DNA of 64,000 nucleotides from Sugiyamaella lignohabitans (lineage: Eukaryota > Ascomycota > Dipodascomycetes > Dipodascales > Trichomonascaceae). A program made the position numbers and the translations under genes. The notes below the pieces were generated by a model. It worked only from the letters and a program-made list of their open reading frames with translations. It ran no database searches and was not told the origin of the DNA. Below are positions 899 to 62,791 of the stretch, one piece after another; position 1 is the first letter of the stretch; each line of letters begins with the position of its first letter. Location: the NCBI RefSeq assembly GCF_001640025.1, contig NC_031671.1, positions 558,001 through 622,000 of the forward strand. The letters are read 5' to 3'.

Positions 899-968
899 AA
901 CGGTCCTAGCAATCTCCTGCGAAGCAGGAGCCACGGGGTCTGGGGCGGAGCCCCAGCCGCCGGAGGCA
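899..968 (-). repeat. GFE right arm
   Basis: Single R arm with part of the core (GGTCCTAGC), the CTCCTGC-GAA-GCAGGAG hairpin and the GGGGC-GGA-GCCCC hairpin, ending GGAGGCA and followed by a C run. It lies 208 nt before the 70-residue gene, with its GGAGGCA end facing the gene. Confidence 0.9.
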
Positions 969-1175
969 ACACCCCCCCTACCCCTCTCGTCCCGACTGGT
1001 GCTCTCGTCCTGACTGGTGGCGAAGAGTCGGGTCCGAAGCGCATGGCCGCGAGTTTGCCACAGCAAGCGAGCAAGTCCCAACGAGGCTGACCGACGCCGG
1101 ACTATTTAAACAGGGCATCGCCTCGCATCGACGCGGGATCATCCACTCCCAACATCAACATACACACCGATCAAA

Positions 1176-1388
1176 ATGGCCATTCCACTTCCCGAGAAAG
1201 AACTGACCAAATCCGCTGACAACGCTACTGGTTCCAACACCAGCAACCTCGACGGAACTGCCAAAGAACCCTATCCCACCTCGATTCCAACCATTATCGG
1301 CAACGTTAACATCTCTAAAGAAGAGGCTGAGCGTTTGTACGAAGAGCGAATCGAGGACGAATACGCCAAGCGAGAGGGCGGAGCATAA
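1176..1388 (+). CDS. Small conserved-looking protein, 70 aa
   Basis: An intact 70-codon frame opens with an ATG in good context (CAAAATGGCC), about 70 nt after a TATTTAAA box, and is followed by AATAAA near 1434. The protein is polar. Its N-terminus is Thr/Asn/Ser-rich and its C-terminus is a charged helix (about residues 48-70) ending EDEYAKREGGA, which looks conserved rather than random. There is no signal peptide, membrane segment or cysteine. I do not recognise the family. The promoter, start context and polyadenylation signal support a real, probably well expressed gene. It is bracketed by a GFE right arm upstream and a GFE left arm 71 nt after the stop. Confidence 0.7.
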   Translation: MAIPLPEKELTKSADNATGSNTSNLDGTAKEPYPTSIPTIIGNVNISKEEAERLYEERIEDEYAKREGGA

Positions 1389-1458
1389 ACCCCCTCCCTC
1401 ACTGGCTGGCTGTGTAACAAGGTTTTAATCGGTCAATAAATTTATTATTTCCAGGACA

Positions 1459-1530
1459 TGCCTCCGGCGGCTGGGGCTCCGCCCCAGACCCTGGTTGCTC
1501 CTCTCGCTGCGCTCGAGTCGGGCGTCGGGG
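1459..1530 (+). repeat. GFE left arm
   Basis: L arm starting TGCCTCCGGCGG with the GGGGC-TCC-GCCCC hairpin and a CTCGCTGCGCTCGAG second hairpin. It begins 71 nt after the stop of the 70-residue gene and pairs with the R arm at 1663, leaving about 130 nt between the arms. Confidence 0.95.
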
Positions 1531-1662
1531 ACCAGCAGCTCGGGATGGGATTGTCCGTGGGGTTCCTGGTTATTATTTGAGAGTTCAATATCGACGCCAA
1601 AACCACCACATTTTACACCTTTTGCAGACCCTACTTTCCCAAGGACAGTTGGCACCCCCTCG

Positions 1663-1725
1663 CCCGACTCGAGCGCAGCGAGAGGAGCCACGGGGTCTGG
1701 GGCGGAGCCCCAGCCGCCGGAGGCA
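1663..1725 (-). repeat. GFE right arm
   Basis: R arm, near-perfect inverse of the arm at 1459, ending GGAGGCA and followed by a run of C. Together the two arms form a large foldback whose loop is unrelated to the usual core. Confidence 0.95.
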
Positions 1726-2663: not shown

Positions 2664-2802
2664 TGCCTCCGGCGGCTGGGGCTCTGCCCCAGACCCCGTT
2701 GCTCCTGCTTCGCAGGAGATTGCTGGGACCGTAGACACCCGACTCGAGCGTAGCGAGAGGAGCAGCGGGGTCTGGGGCGGAGCCCCAGCCCGGCCGGAGG
2801 CC
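2664..2802 (+). repeat. Complete GFE
   Basis: Complete element: L arm with the CTCCTGC-TTC-GCAGGAG hairpin, core TTGCTGGGACCGTAGACACC, and R arm beginning CGACTCGAGCG. The R arm tip is slightly altered (CCCGGCCGGAGG). G runs lie on the left and C runs on the right. Confidence 0.95.
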
Positions 2803-3296: not shown

Positions 3297-3348
3297 ACGA
3301 GCGAAGCGAGCTACGGGGTCTGGGGCAGAGCCCCAGCCGCCGGAGGCA
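3297..3348 (-). repeat. GFE right arm, truncated
   Basis: R arm with an altered second hairpin (CGAGCGAAGCGAGC), joined through a short G-rich spacer to the L arm at 3365. The two arms are therefore tip to tip, the reverse of the usual order. Confidence 0.9.
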
Positions 3349-3364: not shown

Positions 3365-3434
3365 TGCCTCCGGCGGCTGGGGCTCCGCCCCAGACCCCGT
3401 GGCTCCTCTCGCTGCGCTCGAGTCGGGCGTCGGG
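3365..3434 (+). repeat. GFE left arm
   Basis: L arm with the CTCGCTGCGCTCGAG hairpin, ending in GTCGGGCGTCGGGG. It is the last copy before the PMC1 promoter region. Confidence 0.95.
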
Positions 3435-4494: not shown

Positions 4495-7400
4495 ATGTCG
4501 GTTCCTAAGATCACCGTGGACACAGACGTAAGTACAGACAGCAGTCTCTTCAGACTTATGAGTTAATGAGCTGATGGGTGGACTCGGTTGATAGAGGTTT
4601 GATTGGAGGTCCTCGGAGGTTGTTGATTTCTGGAACTGATTTCTGGACACGGAGACGCCCGACTCGAGCGCAGCGAGAGGAGCAACCAGGGTCTGGGGCG
4701 GAGCCCCAGCCGCCGGAGGCAGACTTCCCACCCCCGAGAACGAAAACTAACTGGTACAGGTGGGCTACGACCGAGAGATTGGGAGTGGTGAGAATGAAGA
4801 GATGGCAGCTATTGCGACACAGGAAGGAAAAGACTGGAGTGCTGATGCGAAGAAGATATTAGAAGAGCACCGAGAGGCCGAGTTCGAGAAGAAGCTGCCG
4901 ATAGGAGGAGGAGATGTAGGGTTTAGGTACTCTCCAGACCAGCTAAATAGCCTGGTGGATCCGAAAAATGCATTTGTTTTGAGAGAGATGGGCGGAATTG
5001 AAGGTCTGGCGGGTGGTTTAGGTGTGGATTTAAACACTGGTTTGACGGACCAGCAGGCGACTGATAGCACTAGATTGGACGTTTATGGTCGTAATGTGCT
5101 TCCTGAAAGGAAAACCAAGAGTTTGCTCAAACTCATGTGGATTGCATTACAGGATAAGGTGCTGATTATCTTGTCAGTAGCTGCGGTTGTATCGCTGGCT
5201 CTGGGTATTTATGAGACTGTAGGTGAACCTCCAGAGTATGACGATCAGGGCCATAAACTGCCGAAGGTCGACTGGGTTGAAGGTGTGGCTATTTTAGTGG
5301 CAGTGGTGATTGTTGTGACTGTCGGTGCAGTTAATGATTGGCAGAAAGAACGACAATTTGCTAAGCTGAATAAGAAGAAAGAAGACCGGAAAGTCAAGGC
5401 TATTCGAAACGGAAAGCCTAGTGAAATTAGTGTGTACGATGTAGTGGTAGGAGATATTCTTCTGGTTGAGCCTGGTGAGATGATTCCTACTGATGGTATT
5501 CTTGTCAATGGATATAATATCAAGTGTGATGAATCGTCTGCTAGTGGTGAGTCTGATACTATGAAGAAACATCCCGCCAAGGAGGTTGTAGACGCTATTG
5601 ATCATAAATCGCAGGGATTGAATCCTCAGTCGAAAGAATTGGATGCGTTTATGCTTTCCGGTGCCAAGGTTTTAGAAGGTACAGGACAGTTTTTGACGAT
5701 TGCTGTGGGTGAAAAGTCGCTTCATGGAAGGACAATGATGTCGCTTCAAGACGAGCCCGAGGCGACTCCTTTACAGGAGAAACTAAATAATATTGCCGAA
5801 GGTATTGCCAAGCTTGGTTTTGCTGCTGCTATTGTCTTGTTTGTGGCTCTTATGATTCGTTTCTTTGTCCAGTTGCCAGGATCTGTCAAGACTCCTTCAC
5901 AAAAGGGTGAGGAGTTTATGACTATTTTCATTACTGCTGTTACTATTGTGGTTGTGGCTGTGCCTGAAGGTCTACCGTTGGCAGTGACTCTGGCTCTGGC
6001 ATTTGCTACTACTCGTATGGTCAAGGATAATAACCTCGTTCGTGTGTTGAAATCTTGTGAGACTATGGGTGGTGCTACGACCATTTGTTCCGATAAAACT
6101 GGTACACTGACTCAGAACCGTATGTCAGTTGTTGCTGCTACAGTTGGTTTCAAGAGCTGTGAAGCCAGTATTGACGGTCCTGCTGATGACCAGGAAGTGC
6201 CTGTGGGTGACAAGAGTCTTGAAAAGAGTCATGATAAGAACTACGACACTGCTAGTGAAGACGTTCTGTCTCCTAGCCAGCTTGTTGGTATCTTGCCAGA
6301 AACCCAATTCACTACACTACTCGACTCAATTGCTCTTAATTCGTCTGCATTTGAAGATAACAGTCCTGAAGCGACTGAGCCGTTTTTGGGATCCAAGACC
6401 GAGACCGCTTTACTAGGATTTGCAAGAAATTATATGAACCTTGGTGAGCTGCTTAAATACAGACAAGCAGCCGACATTGTACAAGTATTTCCATTTGATT
6501 CCGCCAAGAAGTTCATGGCAACCATTGTTCGCACCTCGAGCGGTAGCTACCAGGTTCTGCTTAAAGGAGCGTCGGAAGTGGTTCTTAGCCGATGTACCCA
6601 AATTCTCGATACCGATTCATTCACTAATACCAACCTAACAGCCGAACATCTCGAATTTATCAACAACCAAATTAACCTGTACGCATCAAAATCGCTTCGA
6701 ACCATCGGTCTTGTATATAAAGACTTGCCAGCCGACTGGTCTCCCGATGCTCCTTATGCACTGGAAGAAAACACCTTGTTCAAAGACATGACCTTTTTGA
6801 CCCTGGTTGGTATTAAGGATCCTCTTCGACCCGGTGTCAAGCAAGCTGTGGCCGATTGTAAAACTGCTGGCGTCGTTGTTCGTATGGTTACTGGTGATAA
6901 TATCAATACTGCTCGTGCCATTGCTCTTGACTGTGGTATTTTGACTTCTGCCAACAACGAAGACGAAATCGTCATGGAGGGACCAGAGTTCCGGAAACTC
7001 AATCCTTTTGAACTCAACAGTGTCGTTCCTAAACTGCGAGTTCTCGCCAGATCGTCTCCACAAGACAAACGAAAGCTTGTCAAGTTTCTGAAATCTTTAG
7101 ATGAAACTGTGGCTGTTACCGGTGACGGTACCAACGATGCACCCGCACTTAAACTTGCTGATATTGGTTTCTCTATGGGAATTGCTGGTACCGAAGTTGC
7201 TAAAGAAGCATCCGATGTTATTCTCATGGACGACAATTTCGGAAGTATTGTCAAAGCCATTAAATGGGGTCGTACTGTCAACGATGCTGTTAAGAAGTTC
7301 CTCCAGTTCCAATTGACTGTTAACGTGACTGCTGTTCTATTAACATTCATCTCTGCTGTTGCCGACTCCGATGACACTTCTGTTCTTACTGCCGTTCAAC

Positions 7401-8539: not shown

Positions 8540-8596
8540 TGCCTCCGGAAGCTCCGCCCGAGACCCGGCTGCTCCTCTCACTCCGCTCGAGTCGGG
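8540..8596 (+). repeat. GFE left arm, diverged
   Basis: L arm with decayed first hairpin (CCTCCGGAAGCTCCGCCCGAGACC) and CTCACTCCGCTCGAG, 94 nt after the PMC1 stop. Confidence 0.85.
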
Positions 8597-8629: not shown

Positions 8630-8695
8630 TGCCTCCGGCGGCTGGGGCTCCGCCCCAGACCCTGGTTGCTCCTCTCGCTGCGCTCGAGTCGGGTT
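8630..8695 (+). repeat. GFE left arm
   Basis: Well conserved L arm (CCTGGTTGCTCCTCTCGCTG variant) forming a foldback with the R arm at 8731. The loop of about 35 nt is G-rich. Confidence 0.95.
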
Positions 8696-8730
8696 GGGGG
8701 TCCGGGTCAAGTATGGGGGCTCGAGGGGGA

Positions 8731-8793
8731 CCGACTCGAGCGCAGCGAGAGGAGCAACCAGGGTCTGGGGCGGAGCCCCAGCCGCCGGAGGCA
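8731..8793 (-). repeat. GFE right arm
   Basis: R arm, almost exact inverse of the arm at 8630, ending GGAGGCA and followed by CCACCCCC. Confidence 0.95.
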
Positions 8794-8827: not shown

Positions 8828-8863
8828 GAGCGAAGTGAGAGGAGCCCCAGCCGCCGGAGGCAC
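8828..8863 (-). repeat. GFE right arm with internal deletion
   Basis: R arm that lacks the first hairpin: GAGGAG is joined straight to CCCCAGCCGCCGGAGGCA. The join is at a short GGAGC repeat that flanks the lost hairpin in intact copies. Confidence 0.85.
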
Positions 8864-9691: not shown

Positions 9692-9832
9692 TGCCTCCTC
9701 CTGCGAAGCTGGACTCCGCCCAGACTGGTTGTGCCCGCTTCGTAAGCTGTGGGGGGAGTCCCAGAAGCTCGACTCGAGCGTAGCGAGAGGAGCCAGGGGG
9801 TCTGGGGCGCAGCCCCAGTCGCCGAAGGCGCA
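9692..9832 (+). repeat. Complete GFE, strongly diverged
   Basis: Both arms are recognisable but decayed. The left arm has TTGCCTCCTCCTGCGAAGC and a broken first hairpin. The right arm keeps GACTCGAGCGTAGCGAGAGG and GGGGCGCAGCCCC. It is probably an old copy. Confidence 0.8.
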
Positions 9833-11997: not shown

Positions 11998-12135
11998 TGC
12001 CTCCGGCGGCTGGGGCTCCGCCCCAGACCCCGTGGCTCCTGCTTCGCAGGAGACTGCTGGGACCGTCGACGAAACGACTCGAGCGAAGCGAGAGGAGCAG
12101 CGGGGTCTGGGGCGGAGCCCCAGCCGCCGGAGGCA
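11998..12135 (+). repeat. Complete GFE, near consensus
   Basis: 138 bp, the best reference copy: L arm with CTCCTGC-TTC-GCAGGAG, core GCTGGGACCGTCGACGAAAC, R arm with CTCGAGCGAAGCGAGAGG. It ends 50 nt before the tRNA gene. Confidence 0.97.
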
Positions 12136-12185: not shown

Positions 12186-12258
12186 TTCCACGTGGCCTAA
12201 TTGGCAAGGCGTCTGACTACGAATCAGGAGATTGCAGGTTCAAGCCCTGTCGTGGAAG
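12186..12258 (+). tRNA. tRNA-Arg(ACG)
   Basis: The sequence folds as a tRNA. The acceptor stem pairs TTCCACG with CGTGGAA, and the D arm is GGCCTAATTGGCAAGGC. The anticodon loop CTACGAA carries ACG closed by CTGA/TCAG, and the T loop is GGTTCAAGCCC. There is no intron. The ACG anticodon (read as ICG) decodes CGN arginine codons. A T run follows at 12287. Confidence 0.95.
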
Positions 12259-14117: not shown

Positions 14118-14196
14118 TGGGACCGCCGACGCAACGACTCGAGCGAAGCGAGAGGAGCAACCAGGGTCTGGGGCGGAGCCCCAGCCGCCGGAGGCA
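14118..14196 (-). repeat. GFE core plus right arm
   Basis: Starts inside the core (TGGGACCGCCGACGCAACGA) and continues through the whole R arm; the left arm is missing. Its GGAGGCA end faces the 92-codon frame. Confidence 0.92.
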
Positions 14197-14659: not shown

Positions 14660-14733
14660 TGCCTCCGGCGGCTGGGGCTGCGCCCCAGACCCCGTGGCTC
14701 CTCTCGCTACGCTCGAGTCGAGCGTCTACGGTC
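14660..14733 (+). repeat. GFE left arm
   Basis: L arm with GGGGC-TGC-GCCCC and CTCGCTACGCTCGAG, then core-like GCGTCTACGGTCCCGGG. It begins 36 nt after the stop of the 92-codon frame. A 28-nt segment after it (GTTCAAATCCGTTAAATCC) recurs in altered form just before 14805. Confidence 0.93.
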
Positions 14734-14804: not shown

Positions 14805-14936
14805 TGCCTCCGGCGGCTGGGGCTGCGCCCCAGACCCCGTGGCTCCTCTCGCTTCGCTCGAGTCGAGACGTCCACAAACCCAGCCAACTCGCAGGAGCAA
14901 CCAGGGTCTGGGGCGGAGCCCCAGCCGCCGGAGGCA
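14805..14936 (+). repeat. Complete GFE with altered core
   Basis: L arm with CTCGCTTCGCTCGAG and R arm with a shortened second hairpin (only GCAGGAG remains). The core is replaced by ACGTCCACAAACCCAGCC. Confidence 0.93.
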
Positions 14937-15363: not shown

Positions 15364-15501
15364 TGCCTCCGGCGGCTGGGGCTGTCGCCCCAGACCCCAC
15401 GGCTCCTCTCGCTTCGCTCGAGTCGGACGTCGACGGACCCAGCAATCTCCTGCGAAGCAGGAGCCACGGGGTCTGGGGCGGAGCCCCAGCCGCCGGAGGC
15501 A
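15364..15501 (-). repeat. Complete GFE, inverted core, next to ATG3
   Basis: Complete copy with the core in reverse orientation (GACGTCGACGGACCCAGCAA). The CTCGAG-type hairpin is in the left arm and CTCCTGC-GAA-GCAGGAG in the right. It ends only 45 nt before the ATG3 start, so it lies in the ATG3 promoter or 5' leader. Confidence 0.95.
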
Positions 15502-16665: not shown

Positions 16666-16735
16666 TGCCTCTGGCGGCTGGGGCTGCGCCCCAGACCCCA
16701 CGGCTCCTCTCGCTTCGCTCGAGTCGGGCGTTGGG
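16666..16735 (+). repeat. GFE left arm
   Basis: L arm with tip variant TGCCTCTGGCGG, GGGGC-TGC-GCCCC and CTCGCTTCGCTCGAG, 73 nt after the ATG3 stop and preceded by several G runs. Confidence 0.93.
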
Positions 16736-25411: not shown

Positions 25412-25568
25412 TGCCTCCGGCGGCTGGGGCTCCGCCCCAGACCCTGGTTGTGCTCGCTTCGCGAGCTTCTCGGGGCCCCAAATGAGCTCTGGGGATGCCC
25501 GACGCCCGACTCGAGCGAAGCGAGAGGAGCAACCAGGGTCTGGGGCGGAGCCCCAGCCGCCGGAGGCA
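25412..25568 (+). repeat. Complete GFE with longer core
   Basis: 157 bp. The left arm carries the variant hairpin GCTCGC-TTC-GCGAGC and the right arm CTCGAGCGAAGCGAG. The core is longer and includes GGGGCCCCAAATGAGCTC. It lies 91 nt beyond the stop of the EBP1-like gene. Confidence 0.95.
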
Positions 25569-28650: not shown

Positions 28651-28766
28651 ATTATTATTGTCACTTTTCAGAATAAGTATACTGGTGGGTCATTAATTTC
28701 TGAGGAATGGCGACGAGCGTGAATCGAGTTGTTAAATAGATCTGAGTTAGTTAAATACATAGGAAG

Positions 28767-28831
28767 CTTCCGGCGGTCTGCGGCTTTTCCCCAGACCCCG
28801 TGGTCACTCGCGGTTGTTCCCAGAGTGGGAT
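28767..28831 (+). repeat. Degenerate GFE left arm at the edge of copy A
   Basis: TTCCGGCGGTCTGCGGC...CCCCAGACCCCGTGG and CACTCGCGGTTGTTCCCAGAG are recognisable but decayed. The same decayed sequence recurs inverted at 33253, so it was duplicated with the kinase-like unit. Confidence 0.8.
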
Positions 28832-29076
28832 TGTGGCTTCATCAAATGGCCCTAACGAGAGGAAATAAATTTGTCTCATTCACACATTCGTTCCCATGTT
28901 ATTGTTTGGTGATAATATTTTGCATCTACAGACTATAGTGAGAATTCTGGTGATAAGCTCCTTTTACAAATTTAAATATAGACCGACTGGCAAATGGCAA
29001 ATACAACAGAGAAAATTACAAATTTTTATGCCTTTAAATTCTGATATCTGAACAGGCTGGTGGGCTAGCATAGCGA
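28832..29076. other. Spacer between copies A and B
   Basis: AT-rich; nothing recognisable. Confidence 0.4.
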
Positions 29077-38665: not shown

Positions 38666-38730
38666 ATGCAACTGACCGCTGGGGCTGCGCCCCCAGACCC
38701 CACTGCTCCTCTCGCTGCGCTCAAGTCGTT
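38666..38730 (+). repeat. GFE left arm, diverged
   Basis: Tip decayed (GCAACTGACCGCTGGGGC), but GGGGCTGCGCCCCCAGACCCC and CTCGCTGCGCTCAAGTCG remain. Confidence 0.8.
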
Positions 38731-39139
38731 ACGTCTCCCGGAGAATAGGCTCTGACCTTGGTCAGACCAATTAAATTCAAATATCAATCACAGTTCCTGG
38801 CATGGCCCTATGGTCTGTGTAATCTATCTCCTTGTAAGTTTTAGCTTCTTATCAAAGCCAAAAGCTAACTTTCCACTAAAAGAACAGTCGCAGAGGGTGT
38901 GGCACTCTGACACTGTTTCCAAAACCTATTCTTCTGCAAAAAAACAGTGTCCCTCAAGGGAAATCACTAATTGTGGTATCAAGTATTTGTATGAAGAACA
39001 GAAAATAATATCCAAACATTCGGTCTCTGATTAAATTCCAGCTCATATCCAGCTGGTCTGTTACCTGCAACCGACACCCACGCTGCTAGCAGCGCTGGCT
39101 CAAAACAGACCCCAGCCACGATCTGGATACCCCACGCAA
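38731..39139. other. Intergenic, no gene seen
   Basis: AT-rich; a 74-codon frame at 38810-39034 has no support. Confidence 0.4.
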
Positions 39140-39202
39140 CGACTCGAGCGCAGCGAGAGGAGCAACCAGGGTCTGGGGCGGAGCCCCAGACCGCCGGAGG
39201 CA
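39140..39202 (-). repeat. GFE right arm upstream of ARG7
   Basis: R arm with core remnant CGCAACGACTCGAG and a slightly changed tip (CCCCAGACCGCCGGAGGCA); its tip faces ARG7, 175 nt before the start. Confidence 0.93.
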
Positions 39203-40764: not shown

Positions 40765-40920
40765 TGCCTCCGGCGGCTGGGGCTCCGCCCCAGACCCTGG
40801 TTGCTCCTCTCGCTTCGCTCGAGTCGGGCGTCGGGTGGCCAGAGATCCTGTTTAGGCCTCGCAAAGCTCGCGAAGCGAGCACAACCAGGGTCTGGGGCGG
40901 AGCCCCAGCCGCCGGAGGCA
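40765..40920 (+). repeat. Complete GFE between convergent ARG7 and Zn2Cys6 gene
   Basis: 156 bp. The left arm carries CTCGCTTCGCTCGAG and the right arm GCTCGC-GAA-GCGAGC, with a longer core containing GAGATCCTGTTTAGGCC. It starts 36 nt after the ARG7 stop and ends 44 nt from the stop of the opposite gene, so both 3' ends abut it. Confidence 0.95.
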
Positions 40921-40963: not shown

Positions 40964-43588
40964 TTAGTATACGGGAGCATGGTAGAACACGCGGACGTCT
41001 TGGAGGAACCGTTTGCCCATGCGGAGTTTGACGGCCTCGCGGGCCAGTTCTTTGTAGCGGCCGGTGAGACGCCCGATGATTTCGTTGAGCCCGCGGTCCC
41101 AGGAGTCGTTTCGGGGCCGTACTCGCAGGACGGTTTGCCGGAAAAACGCACTGACAAACGCGAGGATGACGAGCGCGAACGGCCGGTACTGGCGCACTTT
41201 GCGTCGGTAGTCGTTGGAAACTCCGTAGAAGAACGCCATCAGTGGATACATGTTATCTATGTGTTTGGCAAACGAGGCTGACAGCCATAGGTCCATGATG
41301 GCTTGTTTGTATATTCTGTTCTCTTCAGGATCGTGTTCGAGCTCATCGACTGCTTGGAGGAGGTAGTCAATAAACTCAAACCGTCTCTTACGTAGCTTTT
41401 CTTCAAATCCGTTGTTCTTAAACTCGTTTTCATACTCTTGAAGAAACAGGACATTAACAAACGAGTCTCGCAGAATATCTCTGTACGTCTCAAACAGAGC
41501 CGTATTGCCCTGTGCTATTCCAAGTAAGTCGGCTTGACCTGTTTTCGATACAATTGGCAGAATATCAAATTCGGCTATGGAACATGCCACTACGAGATAC
41601 GATGCCAGAACCAGCTCAGTCGGGTTATGTGTCGACTTGTCACTGGCAATCTTGTCTCTGAAAGCAGTCAGTGAATTGTGAAAGTACATGCGTTTAGGAA
41701 CTGTTTGAAGAGCGCTAGAATCACCCAGACCGGGGAGTTTCTCAAGAATATTGGCTGAAAACGCACACATACAGTCACGTACTAGTTTGGATCCGATGGC
41801 TACTTGAAAACCATTGGTTCGCCACATGTCAACTATCGATGGAACACCTAATGAACACACTCGTGAAGCATGCCGTAGGAAAAAATCCAGATAGTATACC
41901 TCATTCGAGCTGATATGTGGTGCCATTCGAACTCCTTTCAAAAGAGCACTTGGTATTGGCAGCAGTTGAACAGCTGTACCTCTACCAGCTAGAAAACGGT
42001 CTACATCGTATGAGGACGTTTCTGACGAGATGACGGTTTCATATTCTTCGGCTGTTCTATCGTTGTTGCTCACACGGTCGTAGTCACTGACGCCTGCACC
42101 AGGTAAAATATTAGGATTGGCTGCCACAACAGCGGATTCTGTTACAGACAGGGAAAGTGCTTGAAGCTTATCGAGATCGTTTGCAAAAGCCCGGAAATAC
42201 GAGTTCTGAGTATTGGGACTCACTGCCCTGTGGTTATAGTGTCGATGATAGTATGTAGCCTGGCTGTCATTGTGGCTGTCACTGATACTTCCAGTGATAT
42301 TGTTATTGATACTTCCAGTGCTGTTGTTACTGATATTGTCACTGTTATGGATACTGTCACTGACCGTGTAATTATCATTGTGACTCACACTGTAACTGCC
42401 ATTGCTAGTATAGTTATCAGTGTAGCTGTGATTGTGGTCTTGAGTCCGACTCTCGTGTGCCTGCACCTGATTATAACCATGATTGTAAGTCGAATTATTA
42501 ACATCGTTATCGTTATAACCTCGAGAATCCATCTCCATATCAGCATCAGCACCGGCAACAACATTCACAGCAGAACCCGTGTCTTCGGTCGCACCAGTAA
42601 ACACAGGAATCTGACCACTGTTCAATCCAGATCCTGCCAAAATACTCTCATAGCTCATCCCAACCATATCTTCTGTTCTCTGTTGAGGACTCAAATCACT
42701 ATCAAGTGGTTGTAAGTCCATAGCATCAAACACATGACTTCCGGGTCCACTGTCTTGACTATTAAACGGAGTCATCCCAGTCTTTTCTCCTCCAAATCCC
42801 GTGTACAGACTGTTATCCAGTAACAGACTCTCTACACCACTGGTCGGCGAAATACTCGACTCGCTGACTTCCCCACTACCGCCTCCAGGGCTGCTTCCAC
42901 TGCCACTTCGACTCGCCAGGCCACCACTCTCACTCGACCTCGCACTCTGAATTATCCCTACCCCTCCACCAACATTTCCACTGTCGCTTCCATTTACACT
43001 TCCACTTCCACTTGCACCACTAGCACTTCCACTAGTACTGCCATTTCGAATGACATAACCATCTCCAGTCTTGGGAGACACAGTCTCCACTGTATGAACA
43101 CAGCCAGTCTCACGAGTCCCTGGACAACCAACAACTCCAGATCCTGACCTTTCCGTCAGAACTCCACTCTCTGACGACGCAAAATTATCCACAATCACAA
43201 ACTTCTCCTTTCTAGCCCGGGAACGAGGCTTAACAGGCGGAACTGCCTTGTATTCACACACCCTGTTTGTCGCTATACAGTACTCACACGACGGTTTATC
43301 CTCGCTACACTGTTTCATTTCGTTAGTAAACGGGTCTGTGCCTCTGGCGGCTGGGGCAATGCCCCAGACCCCGTTGCTATCCTCGCTTAGCGAGAATAGA
43401 TCCACTGGTTGGCCAGAATTCTGGAGCATGTCGACCTCATGAGTTTGTCAGACTGAACTGATAAGACTCTTCCACACGCAAATAAATTGCTGAAACATCT
43501 CTTTACAAACCTTTATTCGTAGCCTCTTACACGAGACACACCCCAGCCGCGATTTTTTCCTAACAGTACGTTTTTCTGGTTCTGTCAT
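40964..43588 (-). CDS. Zn2Cys6 transcription factor, Fungal_trans_2 type
   Basis: Two exons, 43511-43588 (26 codons) and 40964-43309, encode about 807 aa. The intron (201 nt, GTTTGT donor, TACTAAC branch, CAG acceptor) contains a GFE left arm. It splits the DNA-binding domain: exon 1 ends GCVSCKRLRIK and exon 2 starts CSEDKPSCEYC. Together they give the standard C-x2-C-x6-C-x6-C-x2-C-x6-C cluster. A basic linker (KPRSRARK) follows. Next is a long Ser/Gly/Asn-rich region with repeated NNS/DSH runs (about residues 100-450), then a helical regulatory domain typical of this family. The target genes are unknown. Without the first exon the reading frame seems to begin in repeat-derived codons and half the zinc cluster is missing. 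Confidence 0.92.
43339..43400 (+). repeat. GFE left arm inside the zinc-cluster intron
   Basis: L arm with tip TGCCTCTGGCGG, first hairpin GGGGC-AAT-GCCCC and second hairpin CCTCGC-TTA-GCGAG. It lies in the intron 43310-43510, close to the acceptor. Confidence 0.92.
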
Positions 43589-44070: not shown

Positions 44071-44209
44071 TGCCTCCGGCGGCTGGGGCTCTGCCCCAGA
44101 CCCCGTGGCTCCTGCTTCGCAGGAGTTTGCCAGGACCGTCGACGGAACCGACTCGAGCGCAGCGAGAGGAGCCACGGGGTCTGGGGCGGAGCCCCAGCCG
44201 CCGGAGGCA
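44071..44209 (+). repeat. Complete GFE
   Basis: 139 bp, near consensus, with core GCCAGGACCGTCGACGGAAC. The flanks extend the palindrome (GGGGGTTG on the left, CCACAACCCCC on the right). It ends 47 nt from the eIF3l stop. Confidence 0.96.
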
Positions 44210-46170: not shown

Positions 46171-46239
46171 TGCCTCCGGCGGCTGGGGCTCCGCCCCAGA
46201 CCCCGTGGCTCCTCTCGCTCCGCTCGAGTCGGGAGTCGG
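46171..46239 (+). repeat. GFE left arm
   Basis: L arm with CTCGCTCCGCTCGAG, preceded by GGGGTTCTGGGGG, 170 nt upstream of the eIF3l start. Confidence 0.93.
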
Positions 46240-47155: not shown

Positions 47156-47218
47156 CCCGACTCGAGCACAGCGAGAGGAGCCACGGGGTCTGGGGCGGAG
47201 CCCCAGCCGCCGGAGGCA
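47156..47218 (-). repeat. GFE right arm
   Basis: R arm (CGACTCGAGCACAGCGAGAGG) ending GGAGGCA, 64 nt beyond the SNU13 stop on the minus strand. Confidence 0.95.
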
Positions 47219-47939: not shown

Positions 47940-48008
47940 TGCCTCCGGCGGCTGGGGCTCCGCCCCAGACCCTGGTTGTGCTCGCTTCGCGAGCGACTGG
48001 GACCATCG
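47940..48008 (+). repeat. GFE left arm
   Basis: L arm with hairpin GCTCGC-TTC-GCGAGC and core piece GACTGGGACCATCGGCG, preceded by GGGGCTGGGGGG. Confidence 0.94.
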
Positions 48009-48446: not shown

Positions 48447-48502
48447 CGCTCGCGAAGCGAGCACAACCAGGGTCTGGGGCGGAGCCCCAGCCGCCGGAGG
48501 CA
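48447..48502 (-). repeat. GFE right arm
   Basis: R arm with hairpin GCTCGC-GAA-GCGAGC, the complement of the L arm at 47940. The two form a foldback spanning about 560 nt. Its tip faces the TMEM135-like gene. Confidence 0.94.
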
Positions 48503-50417: not shown

Positions 50418-50486
50418 TGCCTCCGGCGGCTGGGGCTCCGCCCCAAACCCCGTAGCTCCTCTCGCTTCGCTCGAGTCGAGCGTCGG
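50418..50486 (+). repeat. GFE left arm
   Basis: L arm (CCCCAAACCCCGTAGCTCC variant) with CTCGCTTCGCTCGAG, 42 nt after the stop of the TMEM135-like gene. Confidence 0.93.
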
Positions 50487-50925: not shown

Positions 50926-50983
50926 TGCCTCCGGCGGCGGGCTCTGCCCCAGACCCCGTTGCTCCTGCTTCGCAGGAGACTTG
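50926..50983 (+). repeat. GFE left arm, damaged tip
   Basis: Three or more bases are lost between the tip and first hairpin (CCGGCGGCGGGCTCTGCCCC); CTCCTGC-TTC-GCAGGAG is intact. Confidence 0.9.
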
Positions 50984-51175: not shown

Positions 51176-51233
51176 TCTCTCCTGCGAGGCAGGAGCTACA
51201 GGGTCTGGGGCAGAGCCCCAGCCACCGGATGCA
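51176..51233 (-). repeat. GFE right arm
   Basis: R arm with CTCCTGC-GAG-GCAGGAG and tip CCACCGGATGCA. Together with the arm at 50926 it brackets about 190 nt of unrelated DNA, like an element whose core has been replaced. Confidence 0.88.
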
Positions 51234-53513: not shown

Positions 53514-53577
53514 TGCCTCCGGCGGCTGGGGCTTTGCCCCAGACCTCGTGGCACCTGCTTCGCAGGAGGTTGCTGAG
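53514..53577 (+). repeat. GFE left arm with core start
   Basis: L arm with first hairpin GGGGC-TTT-GCCCC, then CACCTGCTTCGCAGGAGGTTG and a degraded core. Confidence 0.92.
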
Positions 53578-53596
53578 ATGGCTGTCAACTACAGAC

Positions 53597-53732
53597 TGCC
53601 TCCGGCGGCTGGGGCTCTGCCCCAGACCCCGTAGCTCCTGCTTCGCAGGAGATGGCTAGGACCTTCGACGTAACGACTCTAGCGCAGCGAGAGGAGCAAC
53701 GGGGTCTGGGGCAGCCCCAGCCGCCGGAGACA
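53597..53732 (+). repeat. Complete GFE
   Basis: 136 bp with core GGCTAGGACCTTCGACGTAA. The right arm's first hairpin has lost three bases of its loop (GGGGC-AGCCCC) and the tip ends GGAGACA. It follows the arm at 53514 directly. Confidence 0.94.
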
Positions 53733-54627
53733 AACAGGAATCCACGAAGGAATCCGATCTCCAAACTTCAAAGGAGCCCTGGCTGGAAATGGAAAAACAA
53801 GAATACGTATTTGAATCACAGTCCTGAGCCGGAAGGGGATATTACAAAATGAAATGATCTTAAACAGACGGATCTGATGCCGTATATAAGGAATTCCACT
53901 TGGTTCCAGAGAAGGCACTTTCGAGTCAGACCTGGTATTCAAATAGCGGTTGTCTTACGCAAATGGCCACGGACCATATTGCCGAATAATACTATTAATT
54001 GGACGGTGGATTTGATGGTAATGGTATCAACACCTCACCATCATCAAACACATCTACCGAGGGGCTTATTTCGGACTTAAGCAGACTTTCATTAATCTTG
54101 AAAGGCAATAATGCTCAATCTCGTATCGGTGGTTCATCATTCCTCTCGTCTCCTGCTCGCTATTTGTTTGAAGGAGAACTTCAATCAATCAGTCAATCAA
54201 TCAATAAATAAATAAATCTTGTTCAATGTCCTATACTATCCATAATTAATATAATTCAAATAATTTCATTCACACACATCATCAGGAGGGCTTCTCGCAT
54301 TTACCTGATTACAAGCCGTTTACTTTGGCTATTTTGATGAAGGAGAACTTTACTTGTTTCACCTTCGCCTTGACCATGCCCATCTCAAACGGTGGGATTT
54401 TGTATAGCGAATGGTCATGTCAATGGGATAGCATTGGAAATGGATATCTCACTATGGTTATTTATAAATAAGACATAGACCAATGGCAATGGCCAAAGTC
54501 ATAATCGTGATTCGGACGGCAGCTCGACCGTTCTACACTGCCAAAAAAACTTCACCAATAACTCGAAAAACCGAGCATTCCCACGTCCACAATCGCAAAT
54601 AAATAAACAAACTACGGGGCTCCCGCG
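53733..54627. other. Intergenic, possible decayed coding stretch
   Basis: A 70-codon stretch at 53999-54211 without an ATG looks weakly protein-like (LISDLSRLSLILKGN). It may be a relic or an unspliced exon. CAATCAAT repeats follow at about 54181-54215. Nothing else seen. Confidence 0.4.
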
Positions 54628-54690
54628 TAACGACTCGAGCGCAGCGAGAGGAGCCACGGGGTCTGGGGCAGAGCCCCAGCCGCCGGTGGC
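54628..54690 (-). repeat. GFE right arm
   Basis: R arm with core remnant GCGTAACGACTCGAG and tip CCGCCGGTGGC, about 400 nt before the APE1 gene. Confidence 0.92.
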
Positions 54691-56667: not shown

Positions 56668-56727
56668 GCCTCTGGCGGCTGGGGCTCTGCCCCAGGCCCC
56701 GTGGCTCCTGCTTCACAGGAGATTCCG
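56668..56727 (+). repeat. GFE left arm, diverged
   Basis: L arm with tip GCCTCTGGCGG and a broken second hairpin (CTCCTGCTTCACAGGAG, one mismatch), 20 nt after the APE1 stop. Confidence 0.9.
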
Positions 56728-56762
56728 TATGAATTAATATATTAAATATGTACAGGGGATAG

Positions 56763-56900
56763 TGCCTCCGGCGGCTGGGGCGCTGCCCCAGACCCCGTGG
56801 CTCCTGCTTCGCAGGAGATGGCTGGGACCGTGGAGAGAACGACTCGAGCGCAGCGAGAGGAGCAGTGGGGTCTGGGGCGCAGCCCCAGCCGCCGGAGGCA
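56763..56900 (+). repeat. Complete GFE between convergent genes
   Basis: 138 bp with core TGGCTGGGACCGTGGAGAGA and GGGGC-GC(T/A)-GCCCC first hairpins. It ends 15 nt from the stop codon of the ATR1-like gene and is the second copy after APE1. Confidence 0.96.
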
Positions 56901-56914: not shown

Positions 56915-58768
56915 TTAGTGAGGTCGTGAGAGGTTTTTGCGGTCTTGCCAGACGGCTATGAGCGCGAATATCAGGCCCAGGCTACTTAGACCGATGCCGA
57001 GGTAGGCCGAGTAGCGAACGGCGTTGAGAAGAGACTGCTCGTCGGTGCCGGGAGTCGTGTAACGGACGACGGTTCCCGCGATTCCGAGTCCGATAGAGAT
57101 GGCGTAGTTGACAACGGTGGCCACGAGCGAGGCAGCAATTCCCTGGCTTTCTTTTGGCACGGACAGACTGAGCAGGATCGTGGCAGCAGGGAAACTGATA
57201 TCCATACCTGCGACAAAGTTAGACACATAAAAAACACAGTTGTTTGACCCGCCACAGTCCAAACCGCTCTGCGAAGCAGAGCACAACGGGGTCTGGGGCA
57301 GCGCCCAAGCCGCCGGAGGCAGGTCCCCAAAACACTTACCAAAGGGAGCAATGACAGTGGCGACGAAGCTGGCGGCCCAGTAGGTCTCGTGGACTCTGTT
57401 AGTGGCCAGCAGGATTGACGGGACGCAGAACCCGACAAGTGCCATGGCCATGAGAACGGATACAGGGATACGAGGGAACAAGAACGCTGCGGCACCGGAT
57501 GCTAGAAACCCGCCAAAAAGTGCTGGCAGCATCTCAACAGCTGCTAACAGGGGAGTTTGTTGTCGGAGAACTGTGAACAGCTGCCATGTATAATATAGCC
57601 AGATCCCGAAACAGGCCCATCCACAGGCCACGGCCGTCAGAATGAGAATTGTCGACGACTTCATGGTCGATACAGGTACAAGTGGATGCGATACTCTTGT
57701 TTCTACTATTCCAAATGCTACAAACAGTAGCACTCCCAGAATCAGCAGGATATATACATAGGGGTCCGACCACCCCACAACAGGACCTTGGTTCCATGCT
57801 ACATTAAACAGCATCAACCCACCAATACCAGTGAGAGCGCCCAGTATATCAAAAGGCTGTCTGTCGTGATTCGACTTGTTTTCGTAGTTGGGGATAATCA
57901 CATATGCTGCGATTGTCAGCAAAAAACATACAATAGAGCCGACGTAGAAGGTGAAATCCCATCGATGTTTGGCCAGTAGTGTAGAGAATATAGCCCCTAG
58001 CACGAATCCTCCTGGAGCCACAGCCCCGAACAATGCAAATACAATATTCTTACGACTTCCTGCTGGATATAGCATGCCGAAGATGGCCAGGCCATTAGGC
58101 AGAAGAATAGCACATCCTAGTCCTTGTAATCCACGACAAACACTGAAAAATATGGATGAGTTCGAGTATGAACTGATACCTGCTATTAGTGTAAACACAA
58201 ATAACCAGGCGTATCCTATAACAAATAGATTCTTATGACCGTATATCTCGCCCAACCGGCCTGAACTGACAATGAATGTACCGGCAGTCAGCGAGAATCC
58301 TGCCACATACCAACTTAATTGACCAGCATCAGTGGTATTAAAATGAAGACCGATCTCTCGACCAATCGACAGACCCTGAGCAACTGACGCCTGGGTCATA
58401 AGTTGTGCTGATATAATCACCAGGATCAGCAGATATTCTCTAGAGTATGATATATTAGGTCTGTGTGATTCAGGACCGTTTGAACCTTCATCACCACCCT
58501 CTGAAGAATCGCCCCCATCTGGTTCATGATCTAGTCCATGAGGATCTGAATCTAAATTGCTATCCATTCCGTGTTCCAGTCTGTGATCCAGACCGTTCTC
58601 CAGACCACCACCATCACCACCTACCAGTTCTTTACTGGTTTTCTGGTGGTCGAACTGAGTCTCGCTTTCAACACCAGACCCAGTGGACCCTGTTTTATCA
58701 AGAGAAGCAGCTTCTTTCTGAAGCAGTGACTCGACATCTCCGTTCTTTTTTTCTAAAAGCTGAGTCAT
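56915..58768 (-). CDS. MFS transporter, DHA2 family, ATR1-like
   Basis: Exons 57340-58768 and 56915-57207 encode about 573 aa with 14 predicted membrane segments. A polar N-terminal region of about 110 residues has a D/H/G-rich repeat. Family blocks are AGQLSWYVAGFSLTAGTF, GRLGEIYGHKN (motif A), CRGLQGLGCAILLPNG and FGAVAPGGFVLGAIFS, close to yeast Atr1, an aminotriazole and borate exporter at the plasma membrane. The 132-nt intron (GTAAGT donor, CTAAC branch, CAG acceptor) contains a GFE, is a multiple of three and has no stop. Splicing restores APFGMDISFPAATIL, the expected helix; retention would insert 44 repeat-derived residues. The first ATG is at 58768. Substrate inferred from family only. 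Confidence 0.9.
   Translation of the reverse strand: MTQLLEKKNGDVESLLQKEAASLDKTGSTGSGVESETQFDHQKTSKELVGGDGGGLENGLDHRLEHGMDSNLDSDPHGLDHEPDGGDSSEGGDEGSNGPESHRPNISYSREYLLILVIISAQLMTQASVAQGLSIGREIGLHFNTTDAGQLSWYVAGFSLTAGTFIVSSGRLGEIYGHKNLFVIGYAWLFVFTLIAGISSYSNSSIFFSVCRGLQGLGCAILLPNGLAIFGMLYPAGSRKNIVFALFGAVAPGGFVLGAIFSTLLAKHRWDFTFYVGSIVCFLLTIAAYVIIPNYENKSNHDRQPFDILGALTGIGGLMLFNVAWNQGPVVGWSDPYVYILLILGVLLFVAFGIVETRVSHPLVPVSTMKSSTILILTAVACGWACFGIWLYYTWQLFTVLRQQTPLLAAVEMLPALFGGFLASGAAAFLFPRIPVSVLMAMALVGFCVPSILLATNRVHETYWAASFVATVIAPFGKCFGDLPPAAWALPQTPLCSASQSGLDCGGSNNCVFYVSNFVAGMDISFPAATILLSLSVPKESQGIAASLVATVVNYAISIGLGIAGTVVRYTTPGTDEQSLLNAVRYSAYLGIGLSSLGLIFALIAVWQDRKNLSRPH
57265..57321 (-). repeat. GFE right arm inside ATR1-like intron
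   Basis: R arm with a variant stem GCTCTGC-GAA-GCAGAGC and first hairpin GGGGCAGCGCCC, within the intron 57208-57339. Confidence 0.93.
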
Positions 58769-59595: not shown

Positions 59596-59653
59596 TGCCT
59601 CCGGCGGCTGGGGCTCCGCCCCAGACCCCGTGGCTCTTGCTTCGCAAGAGATT
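59596..59653 (+). repeat. GFE left arm with covarying stem
   Basis: L arm in which the second hairpin is CTCTTGC-TTC-GCAAGAG; both stem strands differ from the usual CTCCTGC/GCAGGAG so pairing is kept. Confidence 0.95.
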
Positions 59654-59888
59654 CACACACGGGCAGTAGCACTGACCCTTTGTGTCTCACCAGCGGCCAG
59701 AGATACACTTTATACCAGCTTTTGAGTGGCCCAGTCGACCCCTGGGTTATTATCAGAGGGTGCTCGCCGCTTAAATGTACAGCCGATCTGCTATCTCAGC
59801 AGCGGCATGCACCTCCTGCCGGAGATAGCGACTTCTCTTCGTGTTCTTCTGATAGGAACAGTCCGTCCGACAACAGATCCCTGGTAAC

Positions 59889-60026
59889 TGCCTCCGGCGG
59901 CTGGGGCTCCGCCCCAGACCCCGTAGCTCCTGCTTCGCAGGAGATGGCTGGGACCGTCGACGAAACGACTCGAGCGAAGCGAGAGGAGCAGCGGGGTCTG
60001 GGGCGGAGCCCCAGCCGCCGGAGGCC
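59889..60026 (+). repeat. Complete GFE
   Basis: 138 bp, near identical to the copy at 11998, with core GGCTGGGACCGTCGACGAAA. Confidence 0.96.
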
Positions 60027-61000
60027 GCACCCCTCTCCCTTTCGGATCTCCGAAGGCCCTAGGAGCGTATCTTTTACCGCTTATCTGGTGACCAGGGGAA
60101 GAGGAGCCCCCCTGTGATTGCCAAAGGGGGCTAGATAAGGGTGATCCCGGGGTATCTTTTAAGTTATAATCTGGCGTTGGTCGGACGCCGATGTGACCCC
60201 CACCGATTATGTGGCGCCTGCGAGCAGGACCCCGCTCGCACTAGTGTTGTGACCCCACAGTACAGTTGACCCCGCCGCCAGCCCGCCCCACTAATGGTTC
60301 TAGGAAGGAAGAGCTGACCCCGCCAGAAGCCTGGACGTGGACGATGGCATCGAGAATGCTGCTAACCAGAACAGCAACCCAGTACATTATCTCTGAGTGT
60401 CTGTAACCCAAGAATCAAGAGAGTGTATATGGCTTGTGGTTTGTTATCTACAGTGTGATAAGATGATAAGGGATGTAGCAAACCTCAGACATCAGATCAG
60501 CCGGTGACATAATCTGGACATAATCTGGTATGGAGTTGCGGTGATAATGCTGTCCAATCAGTGGGTTTCTCTATAGACAATTAACCGGTGTGCGTGATAT
60601 TGCAGTGAGTGTACGTACGTGTCACCAGCCACAACAGGCGATATTTTTTTCTGGCTGGTGGTGCCAGTGGATACCCCGCTATTCAAGCTGTCGAACTGGT
60701 CTGTCACAAGCTGCATGTAATACGTGGTATGCGCGTGTAACCCCCATGTCCTTCCAGTCTAAATCTTTCGATAACCGCCACATGCAGGTCCAGATAACAA
60801 TAGTTTAGTCTTATCTGCAGTATCATTTCTTTTTTCTGAACAAACCTTAGATCTCCCCAACTTACTATCAAACAGGACAAATGTCTCGGAATTCGATCCC
60901 GCAAGCATTGTCTTAGATATACAAAATGCCCAGTATAAAACCGCTCACCCATTCGTGGTTGTTGGTGTTTTCTTTGTGCTAAGATCCACAATCATTTAAC
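60027..61000. promoter_or_regulatory. Upstream region of the DAL5-like permease
   Basis: It has GATAAG motifs at 60134, 60457 and 60465 and reversed CTTATC at 60080 and 60810. GATA factors (Gln3/Gat1 type) act at such sites in nitrogen-regulated permease promoters. No gene is seen in this stretch. Confidence 0.5.
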
Positions 61001-62592
61001 ATGTCGGAACAGAAAGAAACCTACGTCGTTGGAATTGAGGAAGTCGTGGACTACTCGAATGCCGATGAGGCCAGGAAATTCCTGGGTAACACTTTTCACA
61101 CTAAAGATCTTGGCGAGTTCCAGGCTTTCGATGATGAGTTTAATAAACGTCTCCTACGGAAAATAGACCTTCGTATTTGCCCTCTTATTATGACCATTTA
61201 CTTTTTACAGTATTTCGACAAGAATACTCTATCATACATCGCGTAAGTATAGACGTCCTGTTTCTCCTCTGTTGCAAATACTAACATCACAGTGTCATGG
61301 GTTTTAAAGAAGATCTTAATTTAGTTGGAAACGACTTTTCGTTTTTGGGAATGTTTTTCTATGTCGGGTTCTTAGCTGCTGAGCTGCCTACTCAGTGGTT
61401 GGCCCAGAGAATCTCGTTTCTCGGCAAGTATCTGGGTATTAATGTCACTCTGTGGGGTGTTGTTTTAGCTTGTCATGCTGCTTGTAATTCGTATGCTCAA
61501 GTGGCTGTTCTTAGAACATTGCTGGGTATTTTCGAGGCCTGTGTAGCTCCTATTCTCGTACTTATTATTTGCATGTGGTACAAGAAACAAGAGCAAGGAA
61601 AGAGAGTAGCATGTTTCTATGTCATGAACAGTTTTACTTCAGTTGCTGCTGGTCTCATTGCATATGGAGCCTCGTTCACAAAGAGTTCGTTTGCCTCTTG
61701 GAGGATCTTTTTGCTTTGCATGGGCCTTGTAACTGTCGTGTGTGGAGTACTGGTATTCTTGTACTTGCCTGATTCCCCTACAAAGGCTAAAGGATTCACT
61801 GATGAAGAGAAGCTAGCTGTGCTCCTTCGTATTAAAGATGATCAAAGTGGAACTCAGAACAACAAGTTGAAGGGATACCAAATGCTCGAGGCTGTTAGCG
61901 ATCCTAAGGTGTGGTTGGTAGTTCTTTCTGTTATGTTGATCTCGATCCCTAATGGTGCCTTGTCTATTTTCAGTTCGCTTATTGTCAATAGTTTCGGTTT
62001 CAGCGCTCAAGAAACTTTGATTGTAGGTGTCCCTGGTGGTTTGTTGAGCGGTTTCTGGCTGCTTGCTGTGCAATACTACTCGGACAAGACCCAGAACAGA
62101 ACCCTCATGAATCTTTGCTATTTATTACCAGCCATTCTTGGGCTAGCGCTTATGGTCGGTCTCGAGAACAGAGAAAAGACGACTGCGATGAAAACAGGAC
62201 TTTTAATTTCCAACTATCTCAGTCAGACGTTCGGCGGTACTCTTGCATTGATCTTGTCTTGGAACGCATCCAATGTCGCTGGTCACTCCAAGAAAGTACT
62301 TGTCAATGCTTTGACTTTCATCGCATTTCCTCTTGGTAACATCATTGGAACTCAAACGTTTCAAGCTAAAGACGCTCCTATGTATATGCCAGGAAAGGCT
62401 GCGATTCTTGGCTGTCTCTCTCTCCAGTGTTTTATCACTGTTGGATGGTACTTTTTGAACCAGTTCTATAACAACAAGAAGCAGAGAGTCTTGGATGAGA
62501 TGGATCCCGAGCAACGTGAAACAATGCGTAGACAAATGGAATTCTCTGACGAAACAGACATGCGCAATCCATTCTTCCGGTATACTAAATAA
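61001..62592 (+). CDS. MFS permease, anion:cation symporter family, DAL5-like
   Basis: Exons 61001-61242 and 61293-62592 encode about 513 aa; the 50-nt intron has a GTAAGT donor and a TACTAAC branch. The N-terminal block RKIDLRICPLIMTIYFLQYF with DKNTLSYIAVMG, and later LAAELPTQWLAQR, are hallmarks of the Dal5/Tna1/Thi73 group of plasma-membrane permeases for allantoate, nicotinate and other carboxylates. Twelve membrane segments are expected, with a cytosolic loop in the middle (LPDSPTKAKGFTDEEK) that is characteristic of the family. The ending NPFFRYTK is also typical. The GATAAG sites upstream fit nitrogen control. Substrate cannot be fixed from sequence. Confidence 0.93.
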
Positions 62593-62656
62593 TGTTGCAG
62601 GAGTTCATATAGTTGTAATTAGTTTGAATATATTGTTTGTAAGTTTATGTCTTTCC

Positions 62657-62791
62657 TGCCTCCGGCGGCTGGGGCTGCGCCCCAGACCCCGTTGCTCCTG
62701 CTTCGCAGGAGTTACGCGACCTCCTTCGTACCGACTTGAACGCAGCGAAAGGAGCCGGGGGTCTGGGGAACAGCCCCAGCAGTCTGAGGCA
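62657..62791 (+). repeat. Complete GFE, diverged right arm
   Basis: The left arm is close to consensus (CTCCTGC-TTC-GCAGGAG). The core is altered (TTACGCGACCTCCTTCG). The right arm is decayed (GACTTGAACGCAGCGAAAGG, CAGCAGTCTGAGGCA). It starts 65 nt after the permease stop. Confidence 0.9.

Follow-up and report, generated by a model that had tools for sequence, protein, structure and literature searches.

A high-copy nuclear hairpin element of the yeast Sugiyamaella lignohabitans whose nearest relatives found are bacterial REP-type repeats

Short GC-rich foldback elements are dispersed through the nuclear genome of the yeast Sugiyamaella lignohabitans. We describe this family from a stretch of 64,000 nucleotides (contig NC_031671.1, positions 558,001 to 622,000, hereafter ‘the window’) and from the remainder of the genome. 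A preliminary description of the window had seen the nearest likeness in the double-hairpin elements and GC clusters of fungal mitochondria. The nearest relatives found are instead bacterial REP-type repeats, which share the 5′ block, the hairpin and the GACCCC foot with the yeast element; the mitochondrial elements were compared by description. REP-type repeats are regarded as bacterial. We think it somewhat more probable than otherwise that the family is a non-autonomous miniature mobile element of REP/REPIN type, whose hairpin module is shared with some bacteria and which has been amplified to thousands of copies in the yeast nucleus. Two points are new here: the high-copy bacterial link of the GCCTCCGGCGGC-hairpin-GACCC(C) module, and the GNA triloop of the second hairpin. 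If this reading is true, it describes a rare exchange of non-coding mobile DNA between a bacterium and a eukaryote, and it offers a nuclear system for identifying the agent that mobilises REP-like hairpins in the absence of a RAYT transposase.

Each half-module of the element comprises, in order, the 12-mer TGCCTCCGGCGG, hairpin 1 (CTGGGGC-NNN-GCCCCAG), ACCCCGTGG or variants of it, and hairpin 2. Three kinds of hairpin 2 are common: alpha (CTCCTGC-TTC-GCAGGAG), beta (CTCTCGC-NNN-GCTCGAG) and gamma (GCTCGC-TTC-GCGAGC). In the canonical copy, an alpha half, the core GGGACCGTCGACG and an inverted beta half follow one another, such that two unlike half-modules face each other. The asymmetric core GGGACCGTCGAC between arms which each carry both hairpins, as first described, is present. 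The element ends in TGCC..GGCA. Its reported complete length of about 138 bp is the usual one, as 21 copies of 138 bp and 13 of 139 bp make up 34 of 66 two-ended copies (taken from the window and 40 other loci, with 22 of the 66 from loci chosen for holding full copies). The full range is 122-190 bp and includes paired halves with unrelated spacers, which is the make-up of the non-canonical two-ended copies. The copies contain no transposase, as originally stated, and no internal gene occurs in the ~138-bp element. On the purine strand, the position profile shows the foot of hairpin 1 as GGGGTC, without GTAG. CGTC is found in the core between the halves and is absent from this foot.

The family described for the window is real, while its count of 43 copies becomes about 42 (12 two-ended copies and 30 single-ended copies or remnants, Table 1). 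BLAST with the two halves of copy 11998-12135 returned 39 merged places; two were dropped and four composites were split to reach this figure. The matches at 9698-9713 and 58674-58695 (16-22 nt) were discarded as chance-like. With up to two mismatches, TGCCTCCGGCGG occurs 54 times in the window, against a shuffle mean of 2.84 (standard deviation 1.49). The genome-wide search which had been proposed found the exact 19-mer TGCCTCCGGCGGCTGGGGC at 2,675 + 2,667 = 5,342 ends in 15.93 Mb (four contigs), and its reversed control at none. In the window together with 20 evenly chosen loci of 10 kb, 173 ends have at most three substitutions and 130 are exact; scaled by this ratio, the genome has an estimated ~7,100 ends. 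Each of the 20 even loci of 10 kb holds between 0 and 12 ends, three of them none; with 70 bp masked per end, the element makes up a mean of ~4.5% of their sequence. Of 2,137 candidate places for the 138-mer, the 40 that were scored have 96-100% identity. In the window and the 20 loci together, 44 copies are two-ended and 85 are single. The surroundings are those of nuclear DNA, as claimed: neighbouring genes include PDS5, a P-type ATPase, PF03987 (Atg3-like), an M18 aminopeptidase, the major facilitator superfamily (MFS) and ArgJ. No result obtained here pointed to an artefact or to an already named transposon family. Nor was a named nuclear family of this type found in the open-licence literature searched, which did not cover the genome paper (Bellasio et al. 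2016), where repeats may be mentioned.

The loops and stems of the element are kept in a manner that suggests recognition as structures. Among 160 ends (window and 20 loci), hairpin 2 was scored where its centre is GC-NNN-GC and no fewer than 4 of 7 pairs form; 149 ends qualified and 11 were dropped. On the purine strand its loop is GNA in 145 of the 149 (GAA 106, GCA 33, GGA 4, GTA 2). When a strict beta stem was imposed and the loop left free, GNA was found in 109 of 112 ends, a set to which 20 targeted loci were added. Hairpin 1 carries a GNA loop at 158 of 216 ends and an AGA loop at 31. In hairpin 2, pairs 3 and 4 are either Watson-Crick or a tandem G.A mismatch, the latter in 85-86 of the 149 ends. 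Furthermore, stem changes in hairpin 2 are compensated (TCCTGC/GCAGGA, GCTCGC/GCGAGC, GCACGC/GCGTGC and others), and a double-compensated variant of hairpin 1, CCGGGC/GCCCGG, has 154 exact copies. With G and A fixed on either side, a free N is difficult to account for unless the strand is or was recognised in its folded form. The conservation of GNA points to recognition of the copies, now or in the past, as folded single strands. Passages of PMC4686876 describe GNA loops on G-C pairs as extraordinarily stable DNA mini-hairpins with a G-A pair inside the loop. In a single-stranded DNA fold, the full copy reaches -73.0 kcal/mol (z -13.8; opposite strand -71.6), a z value expected from its long inverted repeat alone. 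Single halves fold modestly, with z from -2.1 to -3.8 on the four strands.

A related module occurs in bacteria. The pattern GCCTCCGGCGGCTGGGGC-N2-12-GCCCCAGACCCC, with 30 fixed bases, matched at least 120 stretches in prokaryotic contigs of a collection which, by its description, covers 84,980 species. The random expectation is well under one, with the caveat that GC-rich hairpins are not random sequence. Carriers are scattered over Alphaproteobacteria and Desulfobacterota; they include Roseococcus sp. SDR (32 copies), Polymorphobacter multimanifer DSM 102189, P. glacialis CGMCC 1.15519, Solidesulfovibrio aerotolerans DSM 16695, and metagenome-assembled genomes (MAGs) of Acetobacteraceae and Sphingomonadales. 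The general form GCCTCCGGCGGC-NN-GGG..CCC-NN-GACCC is present in 180 copies in Solidesulfovibrio, 236 in MAG PA4 and 198 in a Roseococcus MAG, and in 61, 41, 15, 9 and 3 copies in the other five genomes queried; the controls gave 0. Bacterial stems vary yet remain largely complementary, for example in genome G551 (17 copies). Among the 120 bacterial loci listed, 68 facing pairs and 90 single ends were counted. The bacterial ends stop at the same GCC as those of yeast and are preceded by an AAAAGG-like purine run (226 ends), where yeast has GGGG. Approached from the hairpin side, GCCTCCGGCGG lies upstream in 144 of 153 yeast matches and in 196 of 206 bacterial ones, the bacterial loci having been preselected by GCCTCCGGCGG. 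The multi-copy state, the frequent pairing and the shared end point are independent of the search pattern. No description of a bacterial GCCTCCGGCGGC-hairpin-GACCC module was found in the open-licence literature searched, literal motifs included.

Compared directly, the repeats of Roseococcus, Polymorphobacter and Solidesulfovibrio have in common with the yeast family the 12-base block GCCTCCGGCGGC, the hairpin, the GACCC foot, the facing pairs and the purine run before the end. They differ in longer stems, other loops and a flank that is A-rich and not G-rich; in the copies inspected, no hairpin 2 was seen and the spacers are unlike the yeast core. Passages of PMC3116915 and PMC8266576 present REPINs as facing REP doublets, proposed to be mobile as folded single strands through a Y1 transposase encoded elsewhere. 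The features given there for REPs and REPINs are short palindromic modules, high copy number, intergenic position, facing doublets with single remnants, and predicted single-stranded DNA hairpins. In yeast, high-copy intergenic inverted doublets and singles (44 and 85) that avoid open reading frames (ORFs) were found. By analogy the yeast family is like REPINs in form, with facing halves, singles, no target duplication, and a fixed block next to a hairpin. It differs in being nuclear, in lacking the GTAG tag and a detected PF01797 (RAYT, Y1) gene, and in having a second GNA hairpin, two unlike halves and a G-run target. CGTC-tagged REPs, according to passages of PMC3733652, are mainly alphaproteobacterial, form head-to-head dimers, some of them inside palindromes, have no dedicated transposase and are reported missing from Acetobacteraceae. 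Both GTAG- and CGTC-tagged repeats have tags, stems and tails other than those of yeast, and a CGTC tag with a CCA-like tail around an 8-9 bp stem was not found in the yeast family.

Judged from the sequences, the identity between the yeast and bacterial modules is best explained by a common origin through horizontal transfer. More tentatively, and with rather more doubt than confidence, we propose that a bacterial REP-class module entered the yeast, where it acquired a second GNA mini-hairpin and was amplified to thousands of copies by a RAYT-free, structure-recognising single-strand route. Beyond the observed dispersal, what we infer is a single-strand step, a mobilising enzyme and the transfer. 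In such a scheme, the element would move while its purine strand is single-stranded, on the lagging strand, in an R-loop or in connection with transcription. This strand would fold into GNA mini-hairpins and be recognised through the fixed GCCTCCGGCGG block together with the hairpin feet. Joining might take place beside a G-run where DNA is open close to the ends of genes, and the halves could be one-armed products or remnants. Dispersal would be carried out by a putative structure-recognising enzyme other than a PF01797 match. Stem-loop synthesis by repair polymerases, as outlined in passages of PMC11292364, may contribute, and a dedicated enzyme might then be unneeded.

Several observations weigh against the REP-type origin and the single-strand route. 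The bacterial loci were found with a yeast-derived pattern, and identity over its 30 positions is given by construction. Among bacteria the module is rare and patchy: its exact form is present in one of 385 alphaproteobacterial and one of 120 Acetobacteraceae genomes, and the general form in two of 148 Desulfobacterota genomes, each count including the carrier on which the sample was centred. Bacterial loops are mostly not GNA, which leaves the single-strand signature to yeast only. By a crude call, 46 of 119 bacterial places lie within ORFs of at least 150 aa, and an intergenic home is not claimed for them. In yeast, the fold energy does not clearly favour the purine strand (-73.0 versus -71.6 kcal/mol, halves within 0.7 kcal/mol), and constraint at the RNA level could also preserve GNA loops. 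Tandem G.A pairs and GNA loops occur in RNA too. Neither a transposition event nor an empty site or polymorphism came to light. A search for PF01797, which matched 5 of 14 control genomes, found none in the yeast genome, and 9 of 11 carrier bacteria gave no match either. Finally, the yeast-type junction of hairpin 1 and hairpin 2 is absent from the viral contigs searched.

The three PF01797 matches, in the two remaining carriers, were rejected as mobilisers: none has the module in the surrounding 2.4-3.2 kb, and one contains an internal stop. Between distant facing bacterial ends (L096 3125-5255, L104 2761-5909) no transposase was recognised by eye, without a family search. PF14214 (RepHel) has no match in the yeast genome and none in 14 controls either. 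Helitrons end in CTRR at the 3′ side; the yeast element ends in TGCC..GGCA. RVT_1 has 13 matches in the yeast genome, which invites the thought that the element is RNA-mediated and SINE-like (short interspersed nuclear element) and is propagated by reverse transcriptases that the yeast itself encodes; the GNA loops and tandem G.A pairs, known from RNA, would fit. We hold this to be very improbable, as no element end was found in the six reverse transcriptase loci read of the 13, no A-tail was seen, 66 copies show no target duplication and the two-ended form has like ends on both sides.

The insertion site itself bears on two other explanations. Upstream of TGCC, positions -13 to -3 are G-rich, and the base composition returns to background ~14 bp outside this end (157 ends). 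Of 72 halves, 38 have GGGG in the 15 bp before TGCC and none has CCCC; the background is 319 of 8,400 16-mers. Of 44 two-ended copies, 22 are flanked by GGGG on the left, 28 by CCCC on the right and 16 by both. G-runs also lie past hairpin 2 in 32 of 72 halves; part of this signal may be left over from the core, so a two-sided G target is not claimed. The proposed check for target duplications found none: 61 of 66 two-ended copies have no shared flank word of 2 bp or more, a single one shares a word above 2 bp (4 bp), and the direct-repeat z is -0.3. Large duplications among the loci examined hold no informative insertion from which an empty site could be read by paralogy. A family of miniature inverted-repeat transposable elements or foldbacks, moved by a lost or unrecognised cut-and-paste (DDE) transposase and only incidentally like the bacterial repeats, would have inverted ends, a size near 138 bp, a high copy number and no internal gene, as the yeast element does. 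Such a family would also be expected to leave fixed-length target duplications. The lack of these, the 85 single-ended copies among 129, the loops and stems kept as structure and the 30 bases common to bacterial repeats make this explanation unlikely, if the least so of the alternatives.

The same flanks speak to the mitochondrial comparison. Passages of PMC4478555 and PMC2800124 describe fungal mitochondrial GC clusters and double-hairpin elements as GC-rich hairpins, mobile or mobile-looking, with an enzyme that is unknown; GC42 has an AG target. Those elements reside in mitochondrial DNA, the yeast copies between nuclear genes. Nuclear copies might be captured mitochondrial DNA of such a family, whose double hairpins, high GC content and want of duplication the yeast element recalls (PMC4478555, PMC2800124). 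The return to background composition so close to TGCC indicates that the yeast copies are not parts of longer shared tracts. With ~7,100 estimated ends in addition, we regard capture as decidedly improbable.

Complementarity between the two flanks of a copy was striking on visual inspection but was rejected as a copy-specific signal. With re-paired flanks as the reference, yeast shows little of it (z 1.2 by local alignment; z 1.98, p 0.028 for the ungapped comparison) and the bacteria a moderate amount (z 2.1; z 3.66, p 0.0003), and most of it is therefore attributed to the shared purine-run preference. Guide-like pairing of the flanking G-run with the ACCCC foot is likewise not copy-specific (z 0.23 in yeast, 1.15 in bacteria).

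Element ends avoid ORFs and favour gene 3′ ends. Six of 173 ends lie inside ORFs, against 41% of random points. Placement used ATG ORFs of at least 200 aa; 79 ends at locus edges were excluded and 88 lie between two ORFs. Of these placeable ends, 56 (64%; random 42%) are nearest a 3′ gene end, and 39 of the 56 are within 200 bp of the stop, where 18 would be expected for random 3′-side points. Where a half lies no more than 250 bp from a gene, its TGCC end points toward that gene in 20 of 24 cases, on 3′ and 5′ sides alike (binomial ~0.0008). The element, much of it just 3′ of genes, may shape gene-end biology. In bacteria, T-rich, terminator-like flanks follow the copies, which occupy convergent gaps more often than divergent ones (23 versus 6). 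T-runs act as terminators. On such grounds, together with the 3′-of-gene position and the convergent-gap copies at 40765 and 56668-56900, the hairpins might have been selected in yeast and, independently, in bacteria to signal the ends of genes, as bidirectional terminators or barriers read by a conserved DNA- or RNA-binding machine. We judge such convergence improbable: the GCCTCCGGCGG block and the GACCC foot are letter-identical in both, beyond what structure demands, and thousands of exact ends with at least 40 near-identical 138-mers argue for dispersal and not for site-by-site selection.

The statement that no copy sits in an exon is not contradicted. Three window copies overlap long ORFs, two within predicted introns and one in a 5′ leader. 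The predicted intron of an MFS gene (57208-57339, minus strand, 132 nt, GTAAGT..CTAAC..CAG) holds the half at 57269-57321; since the intron is open in frame, a gene call by frame only would put it into the protein. The half at 43339-43391 lies just upstream of TACTAAC..CAG, where the predicted acceptor is at ~43310-43328 (minus strand, acceptor side only), and the exon that follows presumably encodes the end of a Zn2Cys6 cluster, which it resembles. The copy at 15364-15501 precedes the likely start codon of the Atg3-like PF03987 gene at 15547.

Viral contigs may be a vehicle between bacteria, as two IMG/VR contigs (L010 and L011) suggest. Both are predicted viral and carry facing module pairs; by eye, ORFs of L010 resemble phage terminase and portal. 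Hairpin 1 with the ACCCC foot alone matched 93 viral stretches and is a common bacterial motif, and the general form including the GCCTCCGGCGG block matched 14. Two closely apposed end blocks were not found in viral contigs. Phage records gave no match at E <= 0.01, and plasmid records one at this threshold, from Streptomyces (30 bases at 93%). With a 45-base query and E up to 10, 97 plasmid records were obtained, of which the best 40 were viewed. Six Roseomonas records among these 40 were rejected as chance-like, with the match under an integrase gene at E 8 (two inspected). The Roseivivax and Vibrio plasmid records inspected have hairpin 1 with its foot in common with yeast. A GGGGC..GCCCC hairpin followed by ACCCC, met in the viral contigs L182-L272, is widespread in phage and bacterial contigs, often as two in tandem, e.g. 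CTGGGGCTCTGCCCCAGACCCCGCTGGGGGAC.

Table 1. Element copies in the window (positions counted from its first letter)
Position	Strand	Feature
900..968	-	alpha half with core remnant
1459..1520	+	beta half
1665..1725	-	beta half
2664..2801	+	two-ended alpha-core-beta, diverged right terminus
3298..3348	-	half, hairpin 2 diverged, back to back with 3365..3425
3365..3425	+	beta half
4660..4721	-	beta half
8551..8594	+	beta remnant
8630..8793	.	two facing beta halves, unrelated spacer
8841..8862	-	end remnant
9770..9829	-	beta half
11998..12135	+	canonical 138-bp copy: alpha half, core GGGACCGTCGAC, inverted beta half
14128..14196	-	beta half
14660..14720	+	beta half
14805..14936	+	two-ended copy
15364..15501	-	two-ended, beta left and alpha right, 5′ leader of PF03987 (Atg3-like) gene
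16666..16726	+	beta half, 73 bp past Atg3-like ORF
25412..25568	+	gamma and beta halves, facing
26824..26883	+	half; hairpin 2 fully paired CTCGAGC/GCTCGAG
28766..28803	+	degenerate remnant within duplicated segment
33256..33313	-	degenerate remnant in duplicated counterpart of 28212-28831
38678..38735	+	beta remnant without TGCC end
39134..39202	-	beta half
40765..40920	+	beta and gamma halves facing, between convergent ORFs
43339..43391	+	half within predicted intron, acceptor side only identified
44071..44209	+	canonical copy
46171..46231	+	beta half
47158..47218	-	beta half
47940..48008	+	gamma half
48452..48502	-	gamma half
50418..50478	+	beta half, 42 bp past ORF stop
50926..50981	+	alpha half
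51178..51233	-	alpha half, diverged
53514..53578	+	alpha half
53597..53732	+	two-ended copy
54626..54690	-	beta half
56668..56722	+	alpha half, between convergent M18 peptidase and MFS genes
56763..56900	+	two-ended copy, same 266-bp M18/MFS convergent gap as 56668..56722
57269..57321	-	half within predicted intron of MFS gene
59596..59651	+	alpha half
59889..60025	+	canonical copy, 98% to 11998-12135
62657..62791	+	two-ended, diverged, 65 bp past MFS ORF

A tRNA-Arg(ACG) gene at 12186-12258 lies 50 bp past the canonical copy 11998-12135. The window also contains a local duplication (27757-37535), in which 29690-32175 and 33368-35852 are 95.7% identical and inverted pieces are found at 28212-28831; the 776- and 787-aa ORFs of this region have no Pfam match. 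The remnants at 28766 and 33256 are seemingly older than the duplication because they lie in its matching pieces. At another locus (L015), adjacent element copies at 8389, 8562, 8781 and 8883 have flanks that look alike by eye, as if tandem-duplicated together with ~100-170 bp.

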